NCBI GenBank assembly: GCA_017548365.1
Contig: JAFZAC010000041.1
Span: forward strand, 1 to 64,000
Length of the DNA stretch: 64,000 nt
From: Muribaculaceae bacterium
GTDB taxonomy: Bacteria; Bacteroidota; Bacteroidia; Bacteroidales; Muribaculaceae
Direction of reading: 5' to 3'
The notes under the pieces were generated by a model. The model did no database searches, was not told the DNA's origin, and saw only the letters and a list, made by a program, of their open reading frames with translations. How positions within the stretch are numbered: position 1 is the stretch's first letter; each line of letters opens with the position of its first letter. The translations under genes were made by a program, and so were the position numbers. Below are positions 498-20,453 of the stretch, in pieces.

Positions 498-1142
498 TTA
501 CAAATTCACTAAAGTGTCGATAGCCTTTAACGGATCCTCGGCCTTAAAGACGTAATTTCCTGCCACGAGGATATCGGCTCCAGCATCGGCAAGCTGACGA
601 CCTGTGACCTCGTTCACGCCTCCATCCACCTCAATCACAGCCTTTGAGCCTTTCTCCTGAAGTAAAGCTTTTAGTTCGCGAACTTTGTTGAGAGTGTTTG
701 GAATAAACTTCTGTCCTCCGAATCCTGGATTAACCGACATTAGCAGTACTAGATCGAGCTGTTCAACGATGTCGCGCAACAGGCACACTGGTGTAGCTGG
801 ATTTATGGTGACTCCTGCTTTCATGCCTGCATCATGAATTTGCTGCACTACCCTATCGAGATGGTTGCAAGCCTCGAGATGCACGTTCATAATTTTGGCC
901 CCACAATCTCGAACTTGATTGACAAACTTTTGCGGTTCCACAATCATTAAATGAACGTCAAGCGGCTTCTTGCACAACTGCTGCACATATTTTATTACAG
1001 GAAATCCAAAGGAAATGTTTGGAACAAACACGCCGTCCATAACATCGAGATGCAACATCTGAGCCTTGCTATGGTTTATCATTTCTATGTCGCGTGCCAG
1101 ATTACCGAAATCGGCACTTAGTAGTGAAGGAGAAACAATCAT
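498..1142 (-). CDS. rpe: Ribulose-phosphate 3-epimerase
   Basis: Interconverts ribulose 5-phosphate and xylulose 5-phosphate in the cytosolic pentose phosphate pathway. At 214 residues it has the usual length of this TIM-barrel family. The metal ligands are visible as H31 and D33 in HLDVMDG, H64 in VHLMIVEP and D173 in EVDGGVN, and the loop SVNPGFGGQ matches the flexible phosphate-gripping loop. The start ATG directly follows a tract of 7-base repeats, with no Shine-Dalgarno sequence. The DedA-family gene lies 41 bases upstream on the same strand, so the two may share a transcript. Confidence 0.95.
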   Translation of the reverse strand: MIVSPSLLSADFGNLARDIEMINHSKAQMLHLDVMDGVFVPNISFGFPVIKYVQQLCKKPLDVHLMIVEPQKFVNQVRDCGAKIMNVHLEACNHLDRVVQQIHDAGMKAGVTINPATPVCLLRDIVEQLDLVLLMSVNPGFGGQKFIPNTLNKVRELKALLQEKGSKAVIEVDGGVNEVTGRQLADAGADILVAGNYVFKAEDPLKAIDTLVNL

Positions 1143-1170
1143 ATTAAGTGTTAAGTATTAAGTGTTAAGT
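1143..1170 (-). repeat. Heptanucleotide repeat leader of rpe
   Basis: Two perfect copies of a 14-base unit, each made of two related 7-mers (minus strand ACTTAAC and ACTTAAT), fill the space immediately before the rpe start codon. Similar 7-base periodic tracts precede the ATPase gene at 4147 and hydG at 5720. Confidence 0.7.
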
Positions 1171-1183
1171 GCGAAATTTAGAG

Positions 1184-1978
1184 TTATGCAGTTTCTGATT
1201 TCTCGCTACAGGGCTCTGAGTTCTCGGCTTTTTTCTTTTTGTTTTTTATCACCTTGTAGATGATGTAGACTATTACCAATCCGAGAAGGGTGAAGCCTGC
1301 AATCTTCAAGTAGTGGTTGTAATGCTCGAGTTGGGCGAAGAACTGGCTGTCGTCGGGGACAACGCGGTAAAGAAGGTAACCAAGCCCAGCCAACACCACA
1401 TTCCAAATTCCCGCGCCCAGGATTGTGAAGAGGCTGAAGGTAGCATAATTCATTCGTGACAATCCAGCGGGGATAGAAATCAAGTGGCGTACAACCGGCA
1501 GCAGACGACTAATGAAGATGGAAATTGAGCCTTTCTTTTGGAAAAAATGTTCGGCTTTATCCAACTTCTCCTTCGAGAGCCTGAGAAAATGCCCCACTTT
1601 GCTGTCGGCAAAGGCATAGATAATGGGGCGTCCAATCAGCACAGATAACCCATAATTGATTGCCGAGCCCAAATAAGCACCTATAGTAGCAGCCAGAATC
1701 ACCCCCCAGAAATCCATGCTGGCATTGGCTTGTAGAGAGAAATAAGCAGCTGGAGGCACCACCACTTCACTCGGCAACGGGATAATTGAACTCTCCATTG
1801 CCATAAGCACTATGACAGTCCAGTAGTTCATGTGATCCTTGAACCAATAATACAGGTTCTCGGCCCATGATGGTTGTGCTGTAGCTACCTGTGCAGAGTC
1901 TTGCGCAAAACAGACATTGGCCATCACGGCTACAGCCACAAGAGTGAGTATAAACAATATAGTCTTGTCACGCTTCAT
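1184..1978 (-). CDS. DedA-family (VTT/SNARE-associated) membrane protein
   Basis: Inner-membrane protein of the DedA superfamily, whose members act in lipid carrier or phospholipid translocation and envelope homeostasis; the substrate here cannot be told. Family marks include ESSIIPLPSE near residue 62, and the F-x3-R-x2-P-x2-R stretch followed by SIPAG (FISRLLPVVRHLISIPAG), with several hydrophobic segments between and after. The protein has 264 residues and ends in a lysine-rich cytoplasmic-type tail. Unusually, it starts with a signal-peptide-like segment (MKRDK, hydrophobic core, then CFAQDSA) before the first DedA helix, which E. coli DedA proteins lack. It is probably cotranscribed with rpe. 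Confidence 0.85.
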   Translation of the reverse strand: MKRDKTILFILTLVAVAVMANVCFAQDSAQVATAQPSWAENLYYWFKDHMNYWTVIVLMAMESSIIPLPSEVVVPPAAYFSLQANASMDFWGVILAATIGAYLGSAINYGLSVLIGRPIIYAFADSKVGHFLRLSKEKLDKAEHFFQKKGSISIFISRLLPVVRHLISIPAGLSRMNYATFSLFTILGAGIWNVVLAGLGYLLYRVVPDDSQFFAQLEHYNHYLKIAGFTLLGLVIVYIIYKVIKNKKKKAENSEPCSEKSETA

Positions 1979-2003
1979 TCTGTGATAAATAGTTTAGAAA
2001 GTG

Positions 2004-2011
2004 CAAAGTTA
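2004..2011 (-). promoter_or_regulatory. Likely -7 box upstream of the DedA-family gene
   Basis: The minus strand reads TAACTTTG, an exact match to TAnnTTTG, 26 bases before the ATG at 1978. No good TTG partner is seen at the expected distance. Confidence 0.45.
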
Positions 2012-2022
2012 CAAATAAAAAG

Positions 2023-2613
2023 TCACACTTCATAACCCAACTGCAAGAACATTGTTCGGTAAGCGTCGGCCTTCTTCTCGAGCGAGAGTGGATAAGCTCG
2101 TGAAGAAGATGGCATACGATAAAGGTCAAAGTCATTGCCATTATAGTTGCAATGAACAACTTTGCCCATTTTAGGCACCTCTACCCCAGCCTTCTGTGCG
2201 ATCACACTTGTTGCTTTCTCACCCGCGGTAACAATAGCCTGAATTGTGGGTCGCGCCTTGAAAAATTTGTCCAGATTAATAGTCTCGACAATATCGAGGA
2301 ACTTGTCGCTAGCATTGTCTTTGAGACGTCTAACCTGTGTTGCGGTATCGTAGAGTGCGATTTTTCGCTCGATTAGAAACTCTTTGAGCCGTGGCAAATC
2401 GAAACGTTTTTCTTCTTCAATCCAGAAGTGATTTTTGTCGCCATAGAAGATGAGACCAGCGATCCTCCACATATCGTTGATACGATTGGGATAGTAGAAT
2501 TCCATCGACCACTTTTCAGGTTTTGGCGGGAAAGTACCAAGCATGAGTACCACAGCACCATCGGGCAAAAATGGCTCGAAAGGATGTGACTCAATGGGAA
2601 TAGTTTTATTCAT
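2023..2613 (-). CDS. Uracil/hypoxanthine-DNA glycosylase-like protein
   Basis: A 196-residue cytosolic protein with the marks of the uracil-DNA glycosylase superfamily, closest in my view to the small single-domain branch that includes DNA-deoxyinosine glycosylases. LGTFPP (residues 26-31) stands in for motif 1, followed by FYYPNRINDMWRI, a stretch typical of that branch. Near the C-terminus MPSSSRAYP resembles the second active-site motif (P-S-x-S-P-A-N in relatives). A role in base-excision repair of deaminated bases is inferred; substrate specificity cannot be read from the sequence. A possible -7 box (TACCTTTG on minus, 2641-2648) lies 28 bases upstream. Confidence 0.75.
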   Translation of the reverse strand: MNKTIPIESHPFEPFLPDGAVVLMLGTFPPKPEKWSMEFYYPNRINDMWRIAGLIFYGDKNHFWIEEEKRFDLPRLKEFLIERKIALYDTATQVRRLKDNASDKFLDIVETINLDKFFKARPTIQAIVTAGEKATSVIAQKAGVEVPKMGKVVHCNYNGNDFDLYRMPSSSRAYPLSLEKKADAYRTMFLQLGYEV

Positions 2614-2640
2614 TTATCTTTGTTATTATATTTTCGCAAG

Positions 2641-2648
2641 CAAAGGTA
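2641..2648 (-). promoter_or_regulatory. Possible -7 box for the DNA glycosylase-like gene
   Basis: The minus strand reads TACCTTTG, matching TAnnTTTG, 28 bases before the ATG at 2613. There is no convincing TTG element further up. Confidence 0.35.
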
Positions 2649-2701
2649 AGAAAAAAAGATTAAAGTATATATTTTTAAATGTTAGTTTTAAGTTGACTCT
2701 G

Positions 2702-4147
2702 TTAACCCACTGACTCATTTGGTTCACTTGACTCACCTGACTCAGTTGACTCAGATGACACGCTGAAACCCTGACTTGAATTGTCATCATTAGATGACTT
2801 GCTGCTTGAGTTGTGGTAGTTGTGATATGGAACAAATGCGTTCTCGTATTGCTCATCGCTGTCCTCATCATCGTATACTTCATCATATTCGTCTCCATAG
2901 TCGTCGTATTCTTCTTCACAATTGTATATTTGATTGTACTCCTCAACAGTCATTCTCTCTCCATATTCGTCAATGGTGTATTGTGATTCGTCGTAGATGG
3001 GTGTGAGATCGATTTCGAGCTTTATTCTAGGCATAGCCTTTGGCATCCATGAATAATTGTCGACACTGTCTTGTTGAGGTTTATTAGAGTCTTGCTTACT
3101 GTTTGTGACCTGTTGTGTATCTTGTTTCTTATCCTTTACTGCCTCGTGCTTGCGAATAGTTCTTGAGACGTGAGATTGCGAACATCCTACTATAGCTGCT
3201 ATTTCCCTTGTAGAGAAATATAACTCCTTGTATTTGATAATCGCCTGATTTATTTGGTCACTTGTGTGGTATCCGTTATCTCTGAGGAGTTGTCGTTCAT
3301 TACCACCTGAATAAAGCTCGTTGAACTGGAGGAATCCATTACTCTCATCTCTGCCAAACTGAGTGGTAATGACATTGAGCTCATCATAAATGACCGGTCC
3401 CATTCTATTTTTGTGGTGTTTTATATAATGTGTGACATTATTATTCTCGACATTGTACTGATTAACCCTAGTAAGCGAGAAAATAGAATCAAATGCGTAG
3501 GAATATTCAAATGAGCCAGCAAGATTGTCTATTGTTGTTAGTTGCTGCATCCTGCGACGCTTGGAATGTGCTAGTACAAGAATCGAAATCAAGAAATGCT
3601 GTGACCAACTCCTGAGAGTGTTGAACACATATCTCACATCGGCCTGGTCACCCGTTCCAATAAGATGAGTTATATCGTCGATAATGATGACCGGGGCTTT
3701 TTCTTGAACAAACTCCTTCTTTATATAATCAAGAATGCTACGGCTATCTAGTGGCGCTGTTGAGTAGTTGGGATTCAGCGGTTTGACGATAAATGATGCG
3801 TCACCCGAATTATAATCAAACTTGTTGGTTTTATATCTTGGTTTGAACTGATGTGCAGCGTTCTCGAAATCGAAGTAGAGAGTTTTTAATCCTCTTTTGT
3901 TTAGCACGTTGGCGATTTGCATTGCAAGTATGGTTTTGCCAACGTTTGGTTCTCCGAAAAGACATGCCATCTCACCTTGATACCAAAGTCCGTGCCATAG
4001 ATTGACAGCGGGTAATGCGCTCCCTATCATAGTGGACAAAACTTGTGCGTCGAAAGGCTCGCCTTTCTTTTCGAAAAGTTTTCCGTGATATTTTAACTCT
4101 GCTTCAATGCGCTTGATGAATTCTTCGGTAATAGTTTTAATTTCCAT
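2702..4147 (-). CDS. RecA-fold AAA ATPase with helix-turn-helix and acidic tail
   Basis: A 481-residue protein of unknown role. Residues about 60-250 form a RecA/RepA-like ATPase core: Walker A GEPNVGKT, then YFDFEN, and Walker B VIIIDDITH. This fold occurs in replicative helicase loaders, RadA-like proteins and plasmid RepA helicases. A helix-turn-helix of the resolvase/MarR type (STREIAAIVGCSQSHVSRTI) follows around residue 320, suggesting DNA binding. The last ~110 residues are low complexity, rich in D, E, Y and then S, and end in three-residue repeats. No replication origin, relaxase or integrase is nearby, so it looks like an orphan chromosomal gene. It has a well-formed promoter and a 5' leader made almost wholly of 7-base repeats. 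Confidence 0.75.
   Translation of the reverse strand: MEIKTITEEFIKRIEAELKYHGKLFEKKGEPFDAQVLSTMIGSALPAVNLWHGLWYQGEMACLFGEPNVGKTILAMQIANVLNKRGLKTLYFDFENAAHQFKPRYKTNKFDYNSGDASFIVKPLNPNYSTAPLDSRSILDYIKKEFVQEKAPVIIIDDITHLIGTGDQADVRYVFNTLRSWSQHFLISILVLAHSKRRRMQQLTTIDNLAGSFEYSYAFDSIFSLTRVNQYNVENNNVTHYIKHHKNRMGPVIYDELNVITTQFGRDESNGFLQFNELYSGGNERQLLRDNGYHTSDQINQAIIKYKELYFSTREIAAIVGCSQSHVSRTIRKHEAVKDKKQDTQQVTNSKQDSNKPQQDSVDNYSWMPKAMPRIKLEIDLTPIYDESQYTIDEYGERMTVEEYNQIYNCEEEYDDYGDEYDEVYDDEDSDEQYENAFVPYHNYHNSSSKSSNDDNSSQGFSVSSESTESGESSEPNESVG
2707..2756 (-). repeat. 9-base repeats encoding the Ser/Glu tail of the ATPase
   Basis: The plus-strand word TGACTCA recurs at 9-base steps (three consecutive copies, with a fourth two units away). 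On the coding strand it encodes the Ser-Glu-Ser-type tripeptides at the C-terminus of the ATPase. Such tracts grow and shrink by slippage without changing frame. Confidence 0.65.
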
Positions 4148-4174
4148 GGGTTTTAGTTCTTAGTTTTTAGTTTT
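4148..4174 (-). repeat. Heptanucleotide repeat leader of the ATPase gene
   Basis: On the minus strand AACTAAA, AACTAAG and AACTAAA follow each other directly before ACCC and the ATG at 4147. Given the -7 box at 4180-4187, these repeats would make up almost the entire 5' untranslated region. Confidence 0.65.
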
Positions 4175-4179
4175 TTTTG

Positions 4180-4210
4180 CAAAGTTATAGTGTGGTGAAT
4201 GGAAAAACAA
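4180..4210 (-). promoter_or_regulatory. Promoter of the ATPase gene
   Basis: Minus strand TTG (plus 4208-4210), a 20-base spacer, then TAACTTTG (plus 4180-4187). This matches the Bacteroidetes sigma-70-type (sigma-ABfr) promoter in both elements and spacing. The start codon follows at 4147, so the predicted leader is only about 27 bases. Confidence 0.75.
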
Positions 4211-4275
4211 TATTAAAAAAACGAAGATTTTTTTGATAGGAGTGTCTAGGAAATACTAGAATTTTAGGATTTTTG

Positions 4276-4500
4276 AACGCCTCGGTTACGGCGCAATACA
4301 TAAACAACGCCCACGCTGTGGCAAAGCTCAATTCATAATGATAATCAACAATATATAATGAACGCCGCGCTTGCGGCGCAATACATTAACAACGCCCACA
4401 CTAGGGCAAGGCTCGATTCATAATGTAATCAACAATAAATAATTGATTGCCGCATTTATGGCGCAATTGATAAACAACACCAATGTTTGTAGCACCATAT
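4276..4500. repeat. Three-unit array of hairpin-bearing ~85-bp repeats
   Basis: This is the main content of the gene-free stretch 4211-4550. Two nearly complete units (4276-4360 and 4361-4445) and one degenerate partial unit (about 4446-4500) lie head to tail. Each begins with a small inverted repeat around GCCGC...GCGGC, followed by GCGCAAT, a TAAACAAC or TTAACAAC stretch, a second GC-rich word and an AT-rich end (ATAATGTAATCAACAATA and variants). The first hairpin of unit 2 is the most perfect (GCCGC-GCTT-GCGGC). The units lack the uniform spacers of CRISPR and no reading frame is conserved, so a REP-like dispersed element is the best guess. Confidence 0.7.
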
Positions 4501-4550
4501 CTATTGCAGAGTGTTTGTTATAGATATCAAGAAAAAATAGTGTAAAAGAT

Positions 4551-4581
4551 TTGGAGTGGTGGCTGGGTTTTAGTACTTTTG
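4551..4581 (+). promoter_or_regulatory. Promoter of the hydEGF cluster
   Basis: TTG at 4551-4553, a 20-base spacer, then TACTTTTG at 4574-4581, matching both elements of the Bacteroidetes promoter. The hydE ATG is at 4594, so the predicted transcript would have a 5' leader of fewer than about ten bases. Confidence 0.7.
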
Positions 4582-4593
4582 TAGGTTGCAAAG

Positions 4594-5640
4594 ATGAGAG
4601 GACTTGTTGACACATTGCGCTTGAAGCACCATTTGGATTCAGATGGCTATGCCGCCTTGTTGACATGTGATGATGCACATTATCTTCATGAGCAGGCTCG
4701 TGAGGTTGCTCAAAGTGTGTTTGGCAAGGGAATTTTTGTAAGAGGTCTTGTTGAGCTCACAAATGTGTGCCGTAATGACTGCTACTACTGCGGCATTCGC
4801 AAGAGCAACAGCAATGTTGAGCGCTATATCCTTACTACTGAACAGGTGCTACAAAGTTGCGATGCTGGTTACAAGTTGGGGTTTAGAACCTTTGTTCTAC
4901 AAGGTGGCGAACTATCCCGTGACAAAGCTCCGTGGCTTGTGGACCTTGTGAGCGAGATAAGGCAACAATGGAGTGACTGTGCAATCACGCTGTCGCTTGG
5001 CGAATGGCCACGAGAAGTATACAAAGCTTTGCATGAGGCTGGTGCCGACCGCTACCTGCTGCGTCATGAAACATATAACGCTGAGCATTATGCTAAGCTT
5101 CATCCTACCGAAATGTCGCTTGAGAAGCGCCTGCAATGCTTGACATGGCTCAAGGAGCTTGGTTACCAAGTGGGCACAGGAATTATGGTTGGAAGTCCAA
5201 ATCAGACTATTGAGAACATAGTTGAAGACATAGAGTTCATTGAGAGTTTTGAGCCCGAAATGATTGGTTTGGGGCCTTTTGTGCCTCAGCATGACACGCC
5301 ACTGGGCGAATATTTTACTGGCAGTGCAGAACTCACATGCCGACTCTATAGCATATTCCGCTTAATATTTCCAAATGCCCTGATACCGAGCACTACGGCG
5401 CTCAATACTATTGACCAAAATGGAAGGACGATGGGCATACTGGCAGGAGCTAATGTTGTGATGCCTAACCTCTCCCCCATTGATGCGCGCGCCCGTTACA
5501 CCCTCTACGATGGCAAGGCAACCACAAATGCCGAGGCTGCCGAGGGAATAGCCCAACTAGAAGCTCAACTTGCAACCATTGGCTATCATATTGACTGGGG
5601 ACGTGGAGACTTCGGTAAATGCAGAATGCAGAATGAATAA
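4594..5640 (+). CDS. hydE: [FeFe]-hydrogenase maturase HydE, radical SAM enzyme
   Basis: One of three dedicated enzymes that build the two-iron subcluster of the [FeFe]-hydrogenase H-cluster; HydE handles the route to the dithiomethylamine bridge. It is 348 residues, normal for HydE. The radical SAM cysteines are C59, C63 and C66 in CRNDCYYC, preceded by FVRGLVELTNV and followed by GIRKSN, as in HydE rather than biotin synthase. The ATG at 4594 is the only reasonable start: there is no other methionine before the cysteine motif, and it sits only about 13 bases after the promoter box. hydG and hydF follow on the same strand; no hydrogenase gene is in the window. Confidence 0.93.
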   Translation: MRGLVDTLRLKHHLDSDGYAALLTCDDAHYLHEQAREVAQSVFGKGIFVRGLVELTNVCRNDCYYCGIRKSNSNVERYILTTEQVLQSCDAGYKLGFRTFVLQGGELSRDKAPWLVDLVSEIRQQWSDCAITLSLGEWPREVYKALHEAGADRYLLRHETYNAEHYAKLHPTEMSLEKRLQCLTWLKELGYQVGTGIMVGSPNQTIENIVEDIEFIESFEPEMIGLGPFVPQHDTPLGEYFTGSAELTCRLYSIFRLIFPNALIPSTTALNTIDQNGRTMGILAGANVVMPNLSPIDARARYTLYDGKATTNAEAAEGIAQLEAQLATIGYHIDWGRGDFGKCRMQNE

Positions 5641-5719
5641 TTGAGAGCTCAATACTAACGACTAATAACTAATAATTAAGAACTAAAAAACTGATAACTA
5701 AAAACTAACAACTATAAAT
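5641..5719 (+). repeat. Heptanucleotide repeat tract between hydE and hydG
   Basis: The whole 79-base gap is a degenerate 7-base repeat with units such as ACTAATA, ACTAAAA and ACTAACA, ending directly at the hydG ATG. The coding strand carries the same A-C-T-A-A-rich word as the leader of the ATPase gene, while the rpe leader uses A-C-T-T-A-A. No promoter box or Shine-Dalgarno sequence is seen inside it. Confidence 0.65.
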
Positions 5720-7135
5720 ATGTATAACCCAAAATCATCACATGCCGAGGAGTTTATTGACCACGGCGAAATATTGGAAACGCTGGAGTATGCTGCCAAA
5801 AACCGCAGCAACCGCGCTCTTATTGAAGAAATAATAAACAAGGCCGCCACTTGCAAGGGCCTCACCCACCGTGAGGCTGCAGTGCTGCTTGAGTGTGACC
5901 AGCCTGACCTTATTGAACGGTTTGAAAATTTGGCCCGTGAGGTAAAGCAGAAACTCTATGGTAACCGCATAGTACTCTTTGCTCCACTTTATCTGTCAAA
6001 TTATTGCGTGAATGGATGTGTCTACTGCCCTTATCATGGGAAGAACCATACGATACCACGCAAGAAGTTGTCGCAAGACGAGATACGCCAAGAGGTAATG
6101 GCCCTGCAACAGATGGGACACAAGCGCCTTGCACTTGAAGCAGGCGAGCATCCTAAGATGAACCCCATAGAGTATATACTAGAGTCAATCAAGACAATAT
6201 ACGACACCAAAGTGGGGAACGGCGCCATTCGTCGAGTGAATGTGAACATCGCCGCCACTACTGTCGAAAACTACACAAAGCTCAAAGAAGCAGGAATTGG
6301 CACATATATCCTCTTTCAGGAAACTTATAATAAAGAGAACTACGAAAAACTGCATCCTACTGGTCCCAAAAGTGACTATGCATATCATACTGAGGCGATG
6401 GACCGTGCTATGGAAGGCGGCATTGATGATGTGGGCATTGGTGTTCTTTATGGCTTGACGACCTATCGTTACGACCTTGTGGGATTGTTGATGCATGCCG
6501 AACATCTTGAGGCTCGCATGGGCGTGGGCCCTCACACCATCAGTGTTCCGCGCATCTGCCCTGCGGATGACATATCACTCGACGAGTTCCCCGATGTACT
6601 ACCCGACGATATATTCTGTAAGATAGTTGCTATTATTCGCCTTGCTGCTCCATATACTGGAATGATCATCTCAACCAGGGAGTCTCAAAAGGTTAGGGAA
6701 AAAGTACTCGACTTGGGCATATCTCAGATTAGTGGTGGTTCACGCACCAGTGTTGGTGGCTACACTACCGAAGAGCGTCACGATGACACAGCCCAGTTTG
6801 ACGTAAGTGACCAGCGTACACTTGACGAAGTGATTGCATGGCTTTTGGACATCGATTATCTACCAAGTTTCTGTACTGCTTGCTACCGTGAAGGCCGTAC
6901 AGGCGACCGCTTTATGTCGCTGGTAAAGCGTGGTAAAATTAGCTATTGCTGTACTCCAAATGCTATGATAACTCTTAAAGAGTATCTTGAGGATTATGCA
7001 AGCCCCGCCACTCGTGAAAAAGGAGAGGCTCTGATACGTCGTGAATTAGAAAAACTTCCTGACGACCGTATCCGTAACCTTGCAAATCGACGACTTATCG
7101 ATATTGCCAATGGGGAGAGGGATTTTCGTTTCTAG
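5720..7135 (+). CDS. hydG: [FeFe]-hydrogenase maturase HydG, tyrosine lyase
   Basis: Radical SAM enzyme that cleaves tyrosine to supply the CO and cyanide ligands, delivered as an Fe(CO)2CN unit for the H-cluster. It has 471 residues, as usual. The SAM cluster cysteines are C96, C100 and C103 (CVNGCVYC), followed by PYHGKN. The second cluster motif C-x2-C-x22-C, unique to HydG over the thiazole enzyme ThiH, is present as C385, C388 and C411. It lies between hydE and hydF on the same strand and probably in the same operon. Confidence 0.95.
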   Translation: MYNPKSSHAEEFIDHGEILETLEYAAKNRSNRALIEEIINKAATCKGLTHREAAVLLECDQPDLIERFENLAREVKQKLYGNRIVLFAPLYLSNYCVNGCVYCPYHGKNHTIPRKKLSQDEIRQEVMALQQMGHKRLALEAGEHPKMNPIEYILESIKTIYDTKVGNGAIRRVNVNIAATTVENYTKLKEAGIGTYILFQETYNKENYEKLHPTGPKSDYAYHTEAMDRAMEGGIDDVGIGVLYGLTTYRYDLVGLLMHAEHLEARMGVGPHTISVPRICPADDISLDEFPDVLPDDIFCKIVAIIRLAAPYTGMIISTRESQKVREKVLDLGISQISGGSRTSVGGYTTEERHDDTAQFDVSDQRTLDEVIAWLLDIDYLPSFCTACYREGRTGDRFMSLVKRGKISYCCTPNAMITLKEYLEDYASPATREKGEALIRRELEKLPDDRIRNLANRRLIDIANGERDFRF

Positions 7136-16706: not shown

Positions 16707-16730
16707 TGACACTTTTGTCATTTTTACTTT
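16707..16730 (+). terminator. Weak intrinsic terminator after the small Cys-rich gene
   Basis: A 5-bp stem (TGACA with TGTCA, four-base loop) followed directly by TTTTTACTTTTT. The stem is short, so efficiency is doubtful, but the position between converging genes fits. Confidence 0.4.
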
Positions 16731-16733
16731 TTA

Positions 16734-19700
16734 TTATTTATCCAATGCATCGAGCATGATAAAAGCAGCCCAGTGTGGACGAGTATTGCGACGTTTTTTG
16801 TCTGGAGCTATATTGTCGTCATCATCATCGTCATAATTATATTCACTGTCTTTGTCTCTAAGCTCCCGCTGGGCTTTAAGGAAAGCATCACGTTTGTGGT
16901 TTAAGCCCATTTCCATGAGATGTGTGTAGAAAGAAGTCATCATGTCCTTGGTAGCTTGGTCGTCTACTTTCCAAAGACTCATCACGATGGTCTGTGCTCC
17001 AGCTTTCTTAAAGCCTCGCTGCAATCCGAAGACACCCTCTCCGGTGACTTTGCCCAGTCCCGTCTGGCATGCCGAGAGTACGAGCAACTCAAGCCCTCTA
17101 AGGTCGAGCTGTGACACCTCCTGTGCTGTGAGCACTCCATCGTCAATATTTGCAGGAATCGTATCTTTGTTAGACAATGCGTTATTTGCACCCAAGAAGG
17201 CAAGACCAGCACACACCATGGCCTTGTCAGATGCATTATGAAGGTTCTCGTAGTTACGCATGAATGTAGGATTTGTCTCTTTTATTTCCTGCAAAGCAGT
17301 GGAGTCGTTCCAGTAGAATCCGTGAGTGGCAATGTGTATAATTCTCTGTTTTTGACCCTTTAGATTCTTGAACGATGTCTCGGTAGCGTCAAGATCGGTC
17401 TTATAATATACCTCAAAGCCGTTATTCTCTAATGTAGAATTTATTTCTTGTACTTCATCCTTGGTGTTTTTAAGATAGTCCCAATTAATACCACGTGTCC
17501 CATCAGGATTTGTTATAATTCTATAGCTTCGTTCACTTGATTCATTTAGGGCTAAATCTTGATTATCAATCTGGATGAGGGCTTCTTGTGATGGCAGAAT
17601 AGATGCGACATTATCATTGTCGTCATTGTAGGTCCACTCGCTGCGATGGCTATGGGTGACCATATCTTGCACTGTGGCGTTGTAATCGATGTCTCCAAAG
17701 ATTGCAGCACTATTAGAAGATAAAGCAGAGTGCTTTATGACCAGCTCGCGAGTCGACGACAGGCGGTAAAAATTGTATCCATGAATACTATCGTTAATCA
17801 TTACACCTTTCTTTTCCCAATGCGGCATCGACTCGATGGCGATGTTGTGAAGTTCCCCGCTGGGAGAGAAATAGATGTTCTTCACACCTTTAAGCTCACC
17901 CATTCTTGCCAACTTTCCCCAAATACTGTCGCTTAACGCCTTGCTAGTGTAAGGCTGCTTTGCTGCAGCCAGCAACTCACTTTCTTCGCATATTTCTATC
18001 AAGTGTGGTTGATCATAACCAGGTCGTACAGTCAAGGCTATATATACAGTACTATCAGTTCCATACTTTGGGAACGAGAGAAATTCTATAGCGATAGAAT
18101 TGGTGTCAAGTTTTTCTTGTACGTTCTGCCAAATAATTTTCAAGTTATCCATAATGTCACCATTATCTTCAACGAACTCCATTAATCTTCTTTCAGACTT
18201 TTCGGCATCATCTTCTTTATTCAAATTCTGTATTATATTACGCTGTCGTTTCAGATTATCGTTTCCACTTTCATCGATTATTCTGTTAAACTCTGCCTCG
18301 CATGTAAGAAGTAACCCTTTAGCAAACAATGCAGACATGTTATACAGATCTCCTATCATGTCTTCTACATAAAGTTCTTTTGAGTTTTGCTTATATGCAC
18401 CTAACGTCGCAGCAGGATATACATTATGAAATAGATATGATTGTACATCCCATTCTTTTTTACGTTCAGCTGACGTACATTTACTGAAACGAAATAGATA
18501 ATTATCATGTCTTTTGTATACTACTTCTCGTAAATACTTATAGGCTAAGACATAGCATCCTTTAGACATATAGCATAATCCCAAATATTTAGATAATTGT
18601 TCTGGAAGAGAATTATCATAACAAAATTTCTCGGCAAGCTGAAAATTAACCAATGCATTATCAAAATCACATTTTGCATAATAGCACAAACCAATCATTC
18701 CATGCAAATATGTGGATAATTGTTTTAGAAGATTTTCATCAGAATACAAATTCTCGGCAAGCTGAAAATTGACCAGTGCATTATCAAAATCACATTGGGC
18801 ATAATAGCACCTGCCTATCATTTCATGCAAATTTGCAACATCATTGTTATCTTTAAAAAACAATTTAGCTTTTGTGCATAAATCTATTGCTTCATCAAAT
18901 TTTCCTTGAATAAGATAATCATCATATCGTTTTGACAAAATATGTATAAAATTGCTATGATATTCAACATTTTCTTTTGCAATAGCTTCTAAATAATATT
19001 CATTTGCTTCTTCATATTGTTCCATTGCAAAATAGCATTTGCATATACTGTATAAACATCCTTTAACAATTACATTTAATCCCCTATTATATACTTTTCC
19101 TGCATATTCTTCTGATAATTTTTCCTCTTTATTCTCATAAATAATAATGGCTTTTTTAAAAAAAGATATTGCTTCTGAATAATATTTTTTAGAATTATCA
19201 TATTCTTTTTTAAAATAATAATAATCACCAATCTTTTCATATGATCGACCTAATTCTACTATGCTATATTCATCTTTTATTGTTTTATATTTTTCAATAA
19301 TTTCAATAATAGCTTTATAACATTTTATTTTTTTATCTACTTCAAATACAGAATAATCGGCTATACTTTTAATTAAATCAACATTAGTTGAATCACATAA
19401 AAACTCTGGGTCTTGAATCAATTGAACTAATGCATCTAAAGCTTTATCATATTGACTATTATCAATGTATTGGATCAATTGTTGTTTTGACAAGACATTA
19501 TTTTGGTTGAGAATTATTGCCGTTTGACTATTGCAGTTTGCACTATCGTTGTATTCTGAAATGTTGATGAAAGAATACCATGGATATATGTTTTTATATA
19601 GTTCACTAGTGCCTACTGGTACATAAAGCCTGCAATCATTTTTTATCCCTTTTAATAATCCACTTCCATATATAACTTTATTTGGTTCTCTAATTCCTGA

Positions 19701-20453
19701 ATATATCGATGATAAACCTGTACAACCATAAAAAGCATCTTCACCAATCTCAACCACGGAATTAGGGATTGACACCGAAGTCAAGCCTGTGCAATCATAG
19801 AAAGCCCACTCACCAATCTCAACCACTGAATTAGGAATATCCACAGAAGTCAAACCAGTGCATCTGGAGAAGGCATCATAACCTATCTTGGTCACTGAAT
19901 TAGGTATTGACACCGAAGTCAAGCCAGTACAACCATAAAAGGCACAACTACCAATGTTGGTTACTGAATTAGGGATTGACACCGAAGTCAAGCCACTGCA
20001 ACCCCTAAAGACCTCATTACCAATCTCGGTCACAGAATTAGGGATTGAGACCGAAGTCAAGCCTGTACAACCATAAAAGGCACAACTACCAATGTTGGTT
20101 ACTGAATTAGGAATATCCACAGATGACAAGCCAGTGCATCCAGAAAAAGCAGAAAAATCAATCACTGTCACCGAATTAGGAATAGACATCGAGGTTAAAC
20201 CAGTGCAATTAGAGAAAGCAGAATTGCCTATCTTAGTGACCAGAAATGTCCTCCCATTATATTTAACACTTTTAGGTATAACAATTTCACCACTTAGATT
20301 TTTATAACTCTGTAAGTAAAGATCGTATGTAACAACAACACTTTGACCGTCTGTATTGATATCGTAACAAATACTGGCAACCATAAAATCATAGGCTGAA
20401 ATATTTGCCGAGAATATTATTAAAAGTGTGAGAATTGACAATATTTTTTTCAT
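16734..20453 (-). CDS. Secreted LRR-TPR-CHAT protein (putative caspase-like peptidase)
   Basis: A 1239-residue multidomain protein. Residues 1-20 form a Sec signal peptide without a lipobox. Residues about 55-270 hold BspA/LRR_5 leucine-rich repeats, with seven full 23-residue units at 86-246 (consensus LTSVSIPNSVxxIGxxAFxGCTG). A helical TPR region of about 10 kDa blocks spans roughly 320-700. The C-terminal third is a CHAT domain with the expected dyad, H1044 in IATHGF and C1129 in LSACQTGLG, then SLWKVDDQAT and a terminal HWAAF. CHAT domains are caspase/separase relatives, usually cytoplasmic; here the signal peptide implies an envelope or extracellular site. The middle is much more AT-rich than the CHAT part. 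The DNA carries two internal repeat arrays. Substrate unknown; the gene just upstream is a candidate partner. Confidence 0.85.
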   Translation of the reverse strand: MKKILSILTLLIIFSANISAYDFMVASICYDINTDGQSVVVTYDLYLQSYKNLSGEIVIPKSVKYNGRTFLVTKIGNSAFSNCTGLTSMSIPNSVTVIDFSAFSGCTGLSSVDIPNSVTNIGSCAFYGCTGLTSVSIPNSVTEIGNEVFRGCSGLTSVSIPNSVTNIGSCAFYGCTGLTSVSIPNSVTKIGYDAFSRCTGLTSVDIPNSVVEIGEWAFYDCTGLTSVSIPNSVVEIGEDAFYGCTGLSSIYSGIREPNKVIYGSGLLKGIKNDCRLYVPVGTSELYKNIYPWYSFINISEYNDSANCNSQTAIILNQNNVLSKQQLIQYIDNSQYDKALDALVQLIQDPEFLCDSTNVDLIKSIADYSVFEVDKKIKCYKAIIEIIEKYKTIKDEYSIVELGRSYEKIGDYYYFKKEYDNSKKYYSEAISFFKKAIIIYENKEEKLSEEYAGKVYNRGLNVIVKGCLYSICKCYFAMEQYEEANEYYLEAIAKENVEYHSNFIHILSKRYDDYLIQGKFDEAIDLCTKAKLFFKDNNDVANLHEMIGRCYYAQCDFDNALVNFQLAENLYSDENLLKQLSTYLHGMIGLCYYAKCDFDNALVNFQLAEKFCYDNSLPEQLSKYLGLCYMSKGCYVLAYKYLREVVYKRHDNYLFRFSKCTSAERKKEWDVQSYLFHNVYPAATLGAYKQNSKELYVEDMIGDLYNMSALFAKGLLLTCEAEFNRIIDESGNDNLKRQRNIIQNLNKEDDAEKSERRLMEFVEDNGDIMDNLKIIWQNVQEKLDTNSIAIEFLSFPKYGTDSTVYIALTVRPGYDQPHLIEICEESELLAAAKQPYTSKALSDSIWGKLARMGELKGVKNIYFSPSGELHNIAIESMPHWEKKGVMINDSIHGYNFYRLSSTRELVIKHSALSSNSAAIFGDIDYNATVQDMVTHSHRSEWTYNDDNDNVASILPSQEALIQIDNQDLALNESSERSYRIITNPDGTRGINWDYLKNTKDEVQEINSTLENNGFEVYYKTDLDATETSFKNLKGQKQRIIHIATHGFYWNDSTALQEIKETNPTFMRNYENLHNASDKAMVCAGLAFLGANNALSNKDTIPANIDDGVLTAQEVSQLDLRGLELLVLSACQTGLGKVTGEGVFGLQRGFKKAGAQTIVMSLWKVDDQATKDMMTSFYTHLMEMGLNHKRDAFLKAQRELRDKDSEYNYDDDDDDNIAPDKKRRNTRPHWAAFIMLDALDK
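18591..18836 (-). repeat. Tandem 123-bp duplication in the TPR region
   Basis: Two adjacent copies (18591-18713 and 18714-18836) align without gaps. The core around CTCGGCAAGCTGAAAATT and the following ~60 bases is nearly identical. Each encodes a 41-residue TPR-like unit containing CDFDNALVNFQLAE, so the length change kept the frame. It looks like a recent in-frame expansion. Confidence 0.8.
19716..20198 (-). repeat. Seven-unit 69-bp leucine-rich repeat array
   Basis: Seven consecutive 69-base units encode the 23-residue LRR_5 repeats (residues 86-246). Units 2 and 4 share the stretch VTNIGSCAFYGCTG, and the DNA of the units is very similar, so recombination within the array is likely. An eighth, degenerate unit starts at residue 247. 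Confidence 0.85.

Follow-up and report, generated by a model that had tools for sequence, protein, structure and literature searches.

TAACTGA direct repeats occur in Beggiatoaceae, cyanobacteria, and five Bacteroidetes, and were proposed to be bound by S1 or another RNA-binding protein (MacGregor 2015, PMC4679880). GGGAATC and GGGGA(C/T)T heptamers were described in Xanthomonas and Nostoc by Rehm et al. (2015, PMC4692102), who cite heptanucleotide repeats of Calothrix, a 2007 study on an excess of heptameric simple sequence repeats (SSRs) in bacterial genomes, and a polymerase-slippage hypothesis; here and below these papers are represented by parts of their text. Here we describe three tracts of seven-nucleotide (nt) period that directly precede the start codons of rpe, an ATPase gene, and hydG in a 64,000-nt stretch (the window; positions 1 to 64,000 of contig JAFZAC010000041.1) of the 3.0-Mb, 44-contig genome of a Muribaculaceae bacterium (GCA_017548365.1; "own genome" or G000 below). 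Period excess, intergenic siting, unit turnover at rpe, scarcity in divergent gaps, and strand polarity lead us to regard such tracts as probably being intergenic heptanucleotide arrays, degenerate SSRs of a known kind, that act as a passive leader oriented by selection and not as a sequence-specific signal. The presence of many unit families at both ends of genes in this genus of Bacteroidales extends the known heptamer arrays and does not make them a new kind.

Lag-7 matches amount to 18 of 21 in the rpe tract (1143-1170), 16 of 20 in the ATPase tract (4148-4174), and 40 of 54 in the hydG tract (5654-5714). The interval originally listed for hydG, 5641-5719, scores only 47 of 72, because its initial 13 bases fall outside the array. 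Just these three tracts reach at least 17 of 21 lag-7 matches in the 64 kb, and among the other periods from 2 to 15 this cut-off yields two tracts at lag 9, one at lag 14 (the rpe tract itself), and one at lag 15. Lowering the cut-off to 15 of 21 brings in a single further tract, 16712-16742, which does not precede a start but sits at the end of a convergent gap. Second-order Markov sequences modeled on the whole window gave no tract in 200 runs. When the model was built from the 5,449 noncoding bases, 2 of 300 runs produced one tract each, and none produced three. On the coding strand the core is ACTTAA at rpe and ACTAA at the ATPase gene and hydG, where the array also contains single ACTGA and ATTAA units and an insertion of one base. 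The sequence-only reading thus located the three strongest period-7 tracts of the window correctly and was right about both the ACTAA/ACTTAA core on the coding strand at all three starts and the names of the genes, which are supported by TIGR01163, PF13481 (AAA_25), and TIGR03955; it overlooked an additional array at the end of hydE. The features at these loci are as follows.

498..1142, minus strand: rpe, ribulose-phosphate 3-epimerase, 214 amino acids (TIGR01163, 269 bits, over the cut-off)
1143..1170, minus strand: rpe array, CACTTAA/TACTTAA, 4 copies, adjoining the rpe start (Tandem Repeats Finder)
1184..1978, minus strand: gene for a DedA/VTT-domain membrane protein (PF09335 VTT; list of open reading frames, ORFs)
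2702..4147, minus strand: gene for an AAA_25-type ATPase, 481 amino acids (PF13481, 46 bits)
4148..4175, minus strand: ATPase array, ACTAAAA/ACTAAGA, about 3.6 copies, taking up almost all of the predicted leader (Tandem Repeats Finder)
4180..4187, minus strand: putative -7 promoter box TAACTTTG, consensus TAnnTTTG (read from the sequence)
4594..5640, plus strand: hydE, [FeFe]-hydrogenase maturase (TIGR03956, 503 bits)
5618..5635, plus strand: AATGCAG array, 2.6 copies, overlapping the last hydE codons (Tandem Repeats Finder)
5654..5714, plus strand: hydG array, ACTAANN, about 8 degenerate units (Tandem Repeats Finder; lag-7 score)
5720..7135, plus strand: hydG, [FeFe]-hydrogenase maturase, 471 amino acids (TIGR03955, 883 bits)

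With 3.6 to about 8 degenerate units and a lag-7 identity of 0.65-0.86, the window arrays are not near-perfect repeats of many units. Their units carry single Gs and no run of three or more, and they are of the types ACTTAAN and ACTAANN, not TAACTGA; units of the latter type are found at other places in the own genome. The hydE-hydG gap, which belongs to a hydE-hydG-hydF cluster, holds both classes of array discussed below, AATGCAG on the stop side and ACTAANN on the start side. Since rpe follows the stop of the DedA-type gene by 41 nt and hydG follows hydE by 79 nt, both genes may be operon-internal. At the ATPase gene, the box TAACTTTG, of the -7 consensus TAnnTTTG (PMC7366714), lies directly before the array, so the predicted transcript leader would be roughly 28 nt long and almost wholly repeat, as had been suggested from the sequence alone.

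The period is specific well beyond the window. In the own genome, (ACTNANN)x3 has 45 matches versus none for its reversed control, and a second family, (ATTNTGN)x3, has 122 versus 7. Across ten genomes, mostly picked for high counts and with overlapping matches counted, ACTNA recurs 2818 times at spacing 7 versus 8 times at spacing 6 and 10 times at spacing 8, and the reversed control at spacing 7 gives 79. Strict tracts were counted in 2.06 Mb from seven genomes, a sample made up of first or neighbouring 20-kb stretches and not of random draws, which genome G009 entered for its high count and in which congeneric species are not independent. This sample holds 105 tracts at lag 7 and 76 at its double, lag 14, versus 0, 1, 7, and 4 at lags 4, 5, 6, and 8 and 30, 4, 1, 17, 2, and 12 at lags 9, 10, 11, 12, 13, and 15. 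In gaps free of tracts, the residual period 7 is at most 0.9 percentage points over other lags in each of the seven genomes.

The unit sequence varies widely. In relatives such as G009, unit families include CCTAAAG, CTCCTAA, ACTTAAA, ACTGAAA, CTAATCT, and others, and 1 of the 18 strict tracts in the own-genome sample is GGGAATC-like (C20:65395-65423 of G000, in L067), the type described from Xanthomonas. Among 36 congeners, (ACTNANN)x3 has 0 to 657 matches, with zero in G003, G022, and G029. The pattern also matches in 88 of 148 genomes drawn from the phylum, where reversed controls are often equally high, which points to other heptad families there. In G084, G100, G168, and G185, the reversed control lies far above the pattern, a further hint at other heptad families in Bacteroidota.

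To place arrays relative to genes, tracts were defined by at least 16 of 21 lag-7 matches, giving 139 in the seven genomes, of which 135 are intergenic. Leaving out 4 inside ORF calls and 7 with no called gene on one side, 128 arrays remain, including 26 in gap interiors. Tracts are scarce in divergent gaps, which bear promoters (6 of 189 gaps, 0.13 per kb) compared with tandem gaps (83 of 726, 0.85 per kb) and convergent gaps (15 of 181, 0.52 per kb). Arrays ending within 15 nt of a start number 51 of the 128, where random placement inside these gaps gives 50.5 ± 4.2; for stops the figures are 74 and 57.7 ± 4.3. Since pooled start adjacency equals the random expectation, the closeness of pooled arrays to starts is a product of short gaps, and start codons are not supported as their general address, with stop adjacency above expectation. 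This is also a warning that start-codon proximity in compact genomes can be a by-product of short gaps. The sense orientation noted from the sequence alone holds in the own genome. There the 45 ACTNA matches form 32 pieces (the hydG array accounts for two), and 25 of the 32 point in sense into a start, 18 of the 32 ending within 20 nt of it, so that, as in the MacGregor type, forward orientation near starts is the majority. Of the remaining pieces, one falls within an ORF call and 6 point to a gene's 3' end, with the stop no more than 25 nt away in 4 cases. In the pooled genomes, arrays of a mirror class lie at stops.

The sequence-only reading had also suggested that repeat number might adjust expression through slippage, which would make rpe, the ATPase gene, and hydG contingency loci, tuned or switched by a varying unit count. 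Unit number in a leader does alter the distance from promoter to start, and the ATPase array fills the predicted leader. We nevertheless hold this to be very unlikely: the units are few and degenerate (lag-7 identity from 0.65 to 0.86), rpe and hydG are metabolic genes, and arrays at stops are at least as common as those at starts (74 and 51 of 128). Few, degenerate units should slow slippage.

The strand of the arrays, in contrast to their pooled position, depends strongly on which end of a gene they adjoin. Tandem-gap arrays were split by the composition of the coding strand, excluding ties and arrays of convergent or divergent gaps, which reduced 128 arrays to 101. C-strand arrays (n = 54) lie at starts 37 times versus 25.1 ± 2.8 expected and at stops 20 times versus 25.2 ± 3.0, whereas G-strand arrays (n = 47) lie at stops 37 times versus 21.9 ± 2.8 and avoid starts (11 versus 21.7 ± 2.7). 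Scoring by the CTNA core and the nearest boundary gave 34 C and 2 G with 6 ties at starts, and 16 C and 45 G with 14 ties at stops (Fisher p = 1.1e-11 for the contrast between starts and stops). Viewed from outside the gene, it is thus the C-containing, G-poor strand that reads into it from either side. Solitary stop-side arrays retain this polarity (22 G, 8 C, 2 equal); ties in strand composition were retained among one-sided arrays, 1 at starts and 3 at stops. Base composition was rejected as the source of the stop-side polarity: in tract-free tandem gaps C exceeds G after stops in 7 of 7 genomes, so the G excess is a property of the arrays. Directional growth was sought through unit homogeneity, which shows no gradient between the gene-proximal and distal halves of arrays at starts (6.08 versus 5.90 of 7, 17 arrays) or at stops (5.89 versus 6.00, 22 arrays).

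At starts, the polarity coincides with leader properties, which were compared between 53 tract leaders from the seven genomes and 600 sampled tract-free leaders, with structure predicted over -35 to +20. Tract leaders carry fewer ATG/GTG/TTG decoys (0.32 versus 1.34 per leader), fewer ATGs (0.08 versus 0.26), and weaker predicted structure (mean minimum free energy -3.3 versus -5.5 kcal/mol). Shuffling the bases of tract leaders gives 0.94 decoys, 0.30 ATGs, and -4.2 kcal/mol, and reverse-complementing them gives 1.60 decoys, 0.42 ATGs, and -6.2 kcal/mol. Adenine at -3, -6, -12, and -13, a motif reported for Flavobacterium (PMC8710568, PMC6847099, in the parts considered), shows no clear gain, with 0.47, 0.51, 0.47, and 0.55 in tract leaders versus 0.48, 0.42, 0.44, and 0.48 in tract-free ones, and a fixed register of the arrays with that motif was rejected on this ground. 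In the own genome, Shine-Dalgarno (SD)-like motifs show no enrichment ahead of starts (12 of 632 leaders at -22 to -4 versus 18 of 632 at -60 to -42); the seven genomes together give 35 versus 50 of 1484, and G009 alone 12 versus 5 of 276. The earlier description of a genome without SD signals is thus supported for the own genome, as is that of weakly structured leaders.

How the arrays evolve can be followed at orthologous loci, one genome per species. In 30 of 30 hydG loci and 28 of 30 rpe loci the start codon stands at the matched position; two rpe loci, whose match starts only at residue 3, were excluded, leaving 28 leaders. At rpe, lag-7 scores exceed the 99th percentile of shuffles in 15 of the 28 species, compared with 0-3 of 28 at the other lags tested, and 67 of 1140 leaders of the sampled genomes generally pass the same score; G023, among the 15, resembles a chance hit. 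The rpe units differ by species (CACTTAA, AACTCCT, ACTTAAA, GACTAAA, TCTAAAA), with exactly shared units in three species pairs, and unit identity is 0.85 within arrays versus 0.67 between species. At hydG, 7 of 30 species pass at lag 7 and 0-2 at other lags. A two-unit form, ACTAA.AAC, lies in the last 45 nt ahead of the start in 20 species. Twelve species, all of them among these 20, have a TAnnTTTG box whose end is 30-36 nt upstream of the start. Longer arrays occur in the own genome and G001.

The ATPase gene has paralogues in the own genome, with six matches including itself, some of them partial. Among its relatives, 5 of 6 distinct loci have a TAnnTTTG box at the same place (L181/L244, L191/L246, L245, L247, and L248; not L243), after which comes a stretch of A-rich leader, 26-34 nt long, with no clear array by eye; L247 has two units loosely spaced by 7. 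A heptad array is thus one among several ways of making such a leader.

Alternatively, start-side arrays might form a specific signal in the RNA, in which ACTNA spaced by 7 nt is bound by ribosomal protein S1 or another RNA-binding protein that recruits or blocks the ribosome. C-strand arrays are indeed sense-oriented and close to starts, the period at rpe is kept in just over half of the species while its units change, and the ACTAA.AAC leader of hydG recurs in two-thirds of the species, with two units wherever the box is present. Yet a bound signal fits poorly with ATPase relatives that lack a clear array, with 3 of 36 congeners that lack any match to the pattern, with the absence of clear adenine enrichment at the four motif positions and of a fixed phase to the ATG by eye, and with a mirror class of similar size at stops. 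We therefore consider such a signal unlikely.

As heptameric SSRs, the arrays would instead originate and turn over through 7-nt slippage or copying. They would persist where 7-nt changes are harmless, that is, between genes and away from promoters, and before starts the C-strand orientation would be retained, providing a weakly structured leader with few decoy starts, suited to SD-free initiation. Such a leader would be passive and interchangeable, with the exact unit, phase, and copy number of little consequence.

Several points weigh against this reading. The hotspot at rpe is stronger than a neutral process predicts, unless it is one old array with unit turnover. Slippage is inferred from a sample with one genome per species, in which strain-level variation in copy number would not show. 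Starts are first-ATG calls, and because arrays are ATG-poor and contain stops, such calls inflate start adjacency on either strand; as C-strand and G-strand arrays are affected alike, the contrast between them is unchanged. ACTNA is not the family of every congener: G003 has 28 matches to the reversed control and 0 to the pattern, and controls are comparable with the pattern in G005, G016, and G034. Polarity is lost (13 C, 9 G, 1 equal) where a single array spans a short tandem gap and adjoins the genes on either side, so the G-strand is tolerated beside a start. Finally, the mirror polarity at stops has no explanation from translation initiation.

A two-ended arrangement could also arise if arrays flanked, as mirrored heptad arms, the hairpin core of a palindromic mobile element dispersed between genes, like a repetitive extragenic palindrome (REP) or a miniature inverted-repeat transposable element (MITE). 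Near-palindromic cores do recur, GCGGATGCC 29 times and GCCTTGGCG 18 times in 400 kb of G009 (L100-L119), where by eye they are often flanked by stop-side and start-side arrays, and 8 and 7 times, respectively, in 200 kb of G033. In the own genome they are scarce, 7 and 4 in 864 kb. Duplexes between the two sides of a tract-bearing gap are not stronger than duplexes across different gaps (33 of 74, p = 0.74), and it is tract-free gaps that show a slight pairing excess (83 of 150, p = 0.03). On the former result, a cis hairpin between stop-side and start-side arrays was rejected; the persistence of polarity in solitary stop-side arrays counts against both the hairpin and the mobile repeat. Genes for the Y1 transposase (RAYT; PF01797) are widespread, in 38 of 41 genomes, yet each genome has only a few, and a single match, covering 83 of 121 positions, comes from the own genome, which makes dispersal driven by RAYT doubtful. 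A mobile repeat is, in our assessment, quite improbable.

Other recurring sequences were seen around the arrays. A dispersed block like TAGTAATCTTACTTAAAACTT with an array attached is present in G009 at L107, L108, L115, L117, and L118, with 5 matches to TAGTANTNNTACTTA in 400 kb; the recurrence of such blocks together with arrays suggests copying between loci. Two ACTNA pieces of the own genome, G000:C20:65600-65618 and L269:2939-2957 (G000:C21), share the flank GCGGCTCCACTCAACACTTAACACTTAAAAGA and so look like copies of one longer repeat. The motif CAACTAATAACTAATTCACT occurs in 13 of 30 loci (L276, L278, L280, L281, L282, L284, L286, L288, L289, L292, L295, L303, and L304), 11 of which have TGCAAAATT, a TAnnTTTG-like box on the opposite strand, nearby, mostly with no ORF directly downstream. 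Rfam scans of the CAACTAATAACTAATTCACT loci L276, L278, and L282 gave no match, and a known RNA family was rejected for five loci carrying CAACTAATAACTA, which have no Rfam match at gathering thresholds. In the window itself, Rfam at gathering thresholds found tRNA only. The window also holds, in the ATPase-hydE gap (4274-4478), 2.4 copies of an 85-bp unit along with GC-rich near-palindromes, as well as imperfect 9-bp and 27-bp repeats at and just past the 3' end of the ATPase gene (2691-2766), and 69-bp repeats in 7.2 copies (19723-20219) that are perhaps part of a repeat protein.

Compared with initiation in Bacteroidia as described in the parts of Baez et al. (2019, PMC6847099) and PMC8710568 considered here, start-side arrays have in common the weak structure and few decoy AUGs of SD-independent leaders, whereas the A-3, A-6, A-12, and A-13 motif is not matched in register. 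Compared with the TAACTGA repeats of the BOGUAY genome, as given in the same portions of MacGregor's paper, they are likewise 7-nt tandem repeats that lie a few nt before starts, mostly forward, with forward-frame stops, no predicted RNA structure, and a patchy distribution. TAACTGA is even a rotation of ACTGATA, found in own-genome arrays such as C2:263949. However, that system has a single fixed unit, whereas here many degenerate units occur together with a prominent stop-side mirror class. Over-representation of heptamers and the slippage hypothesis are shared with the 2007 SSR study and the Calothrix repeats, so far as these are cited in PMC4692102.

The heptamers of Rehm et al., in the sections considered, are also mostly intergenic, degenerate, present as inverted pairs, and under-represented between divergent ORFs, with orthologous gaps that differ in length and sequence. 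Those heptamers have G-runs that form G-quadruplexes in vitro, whereas in most of the present families, TTTAAGT among them, Gs occur singly. Our literature search, mostly of non-subscription papers, found nothing on the present polarity in Bacteroidota. Period-7 repeats have been noted in several phyla without explanation, and a genus that ranges from none to hundreds offers a good natural experiment, in which a measurable polarity and orthologous gaps with different units can reveal what makes and keeps the arrays. The most interesting point is that the polarity found here is the same as that given in the Discussion of Rehm et al. (PMC4692102) for G-rich heptamers of two Xanthomonas genomes and one Nostoc genome. 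On the basis of this agreement, and of a period that is kept while sequence is replaced, as at rpe, one polarity rule might hold across unrelated phyla for any unit, reflecting a common machinery that works in 7-nt steps, preserving the period while replacing the sequence; we offer this as a speculation with a small though real chance of being right. Such machinery, if it exists, may copy arrays directionally so that they abut coding boundaries, or may act at the level of RNA, at both the 5' and the 3' end of a message. Because the polarity is present in families without G-runs, quadruplexes are unnecessary for it, and what the Muribaculaceae arrays share with those of Xanthomonas and Nostoc is thus separable from G-quadruplex formation.

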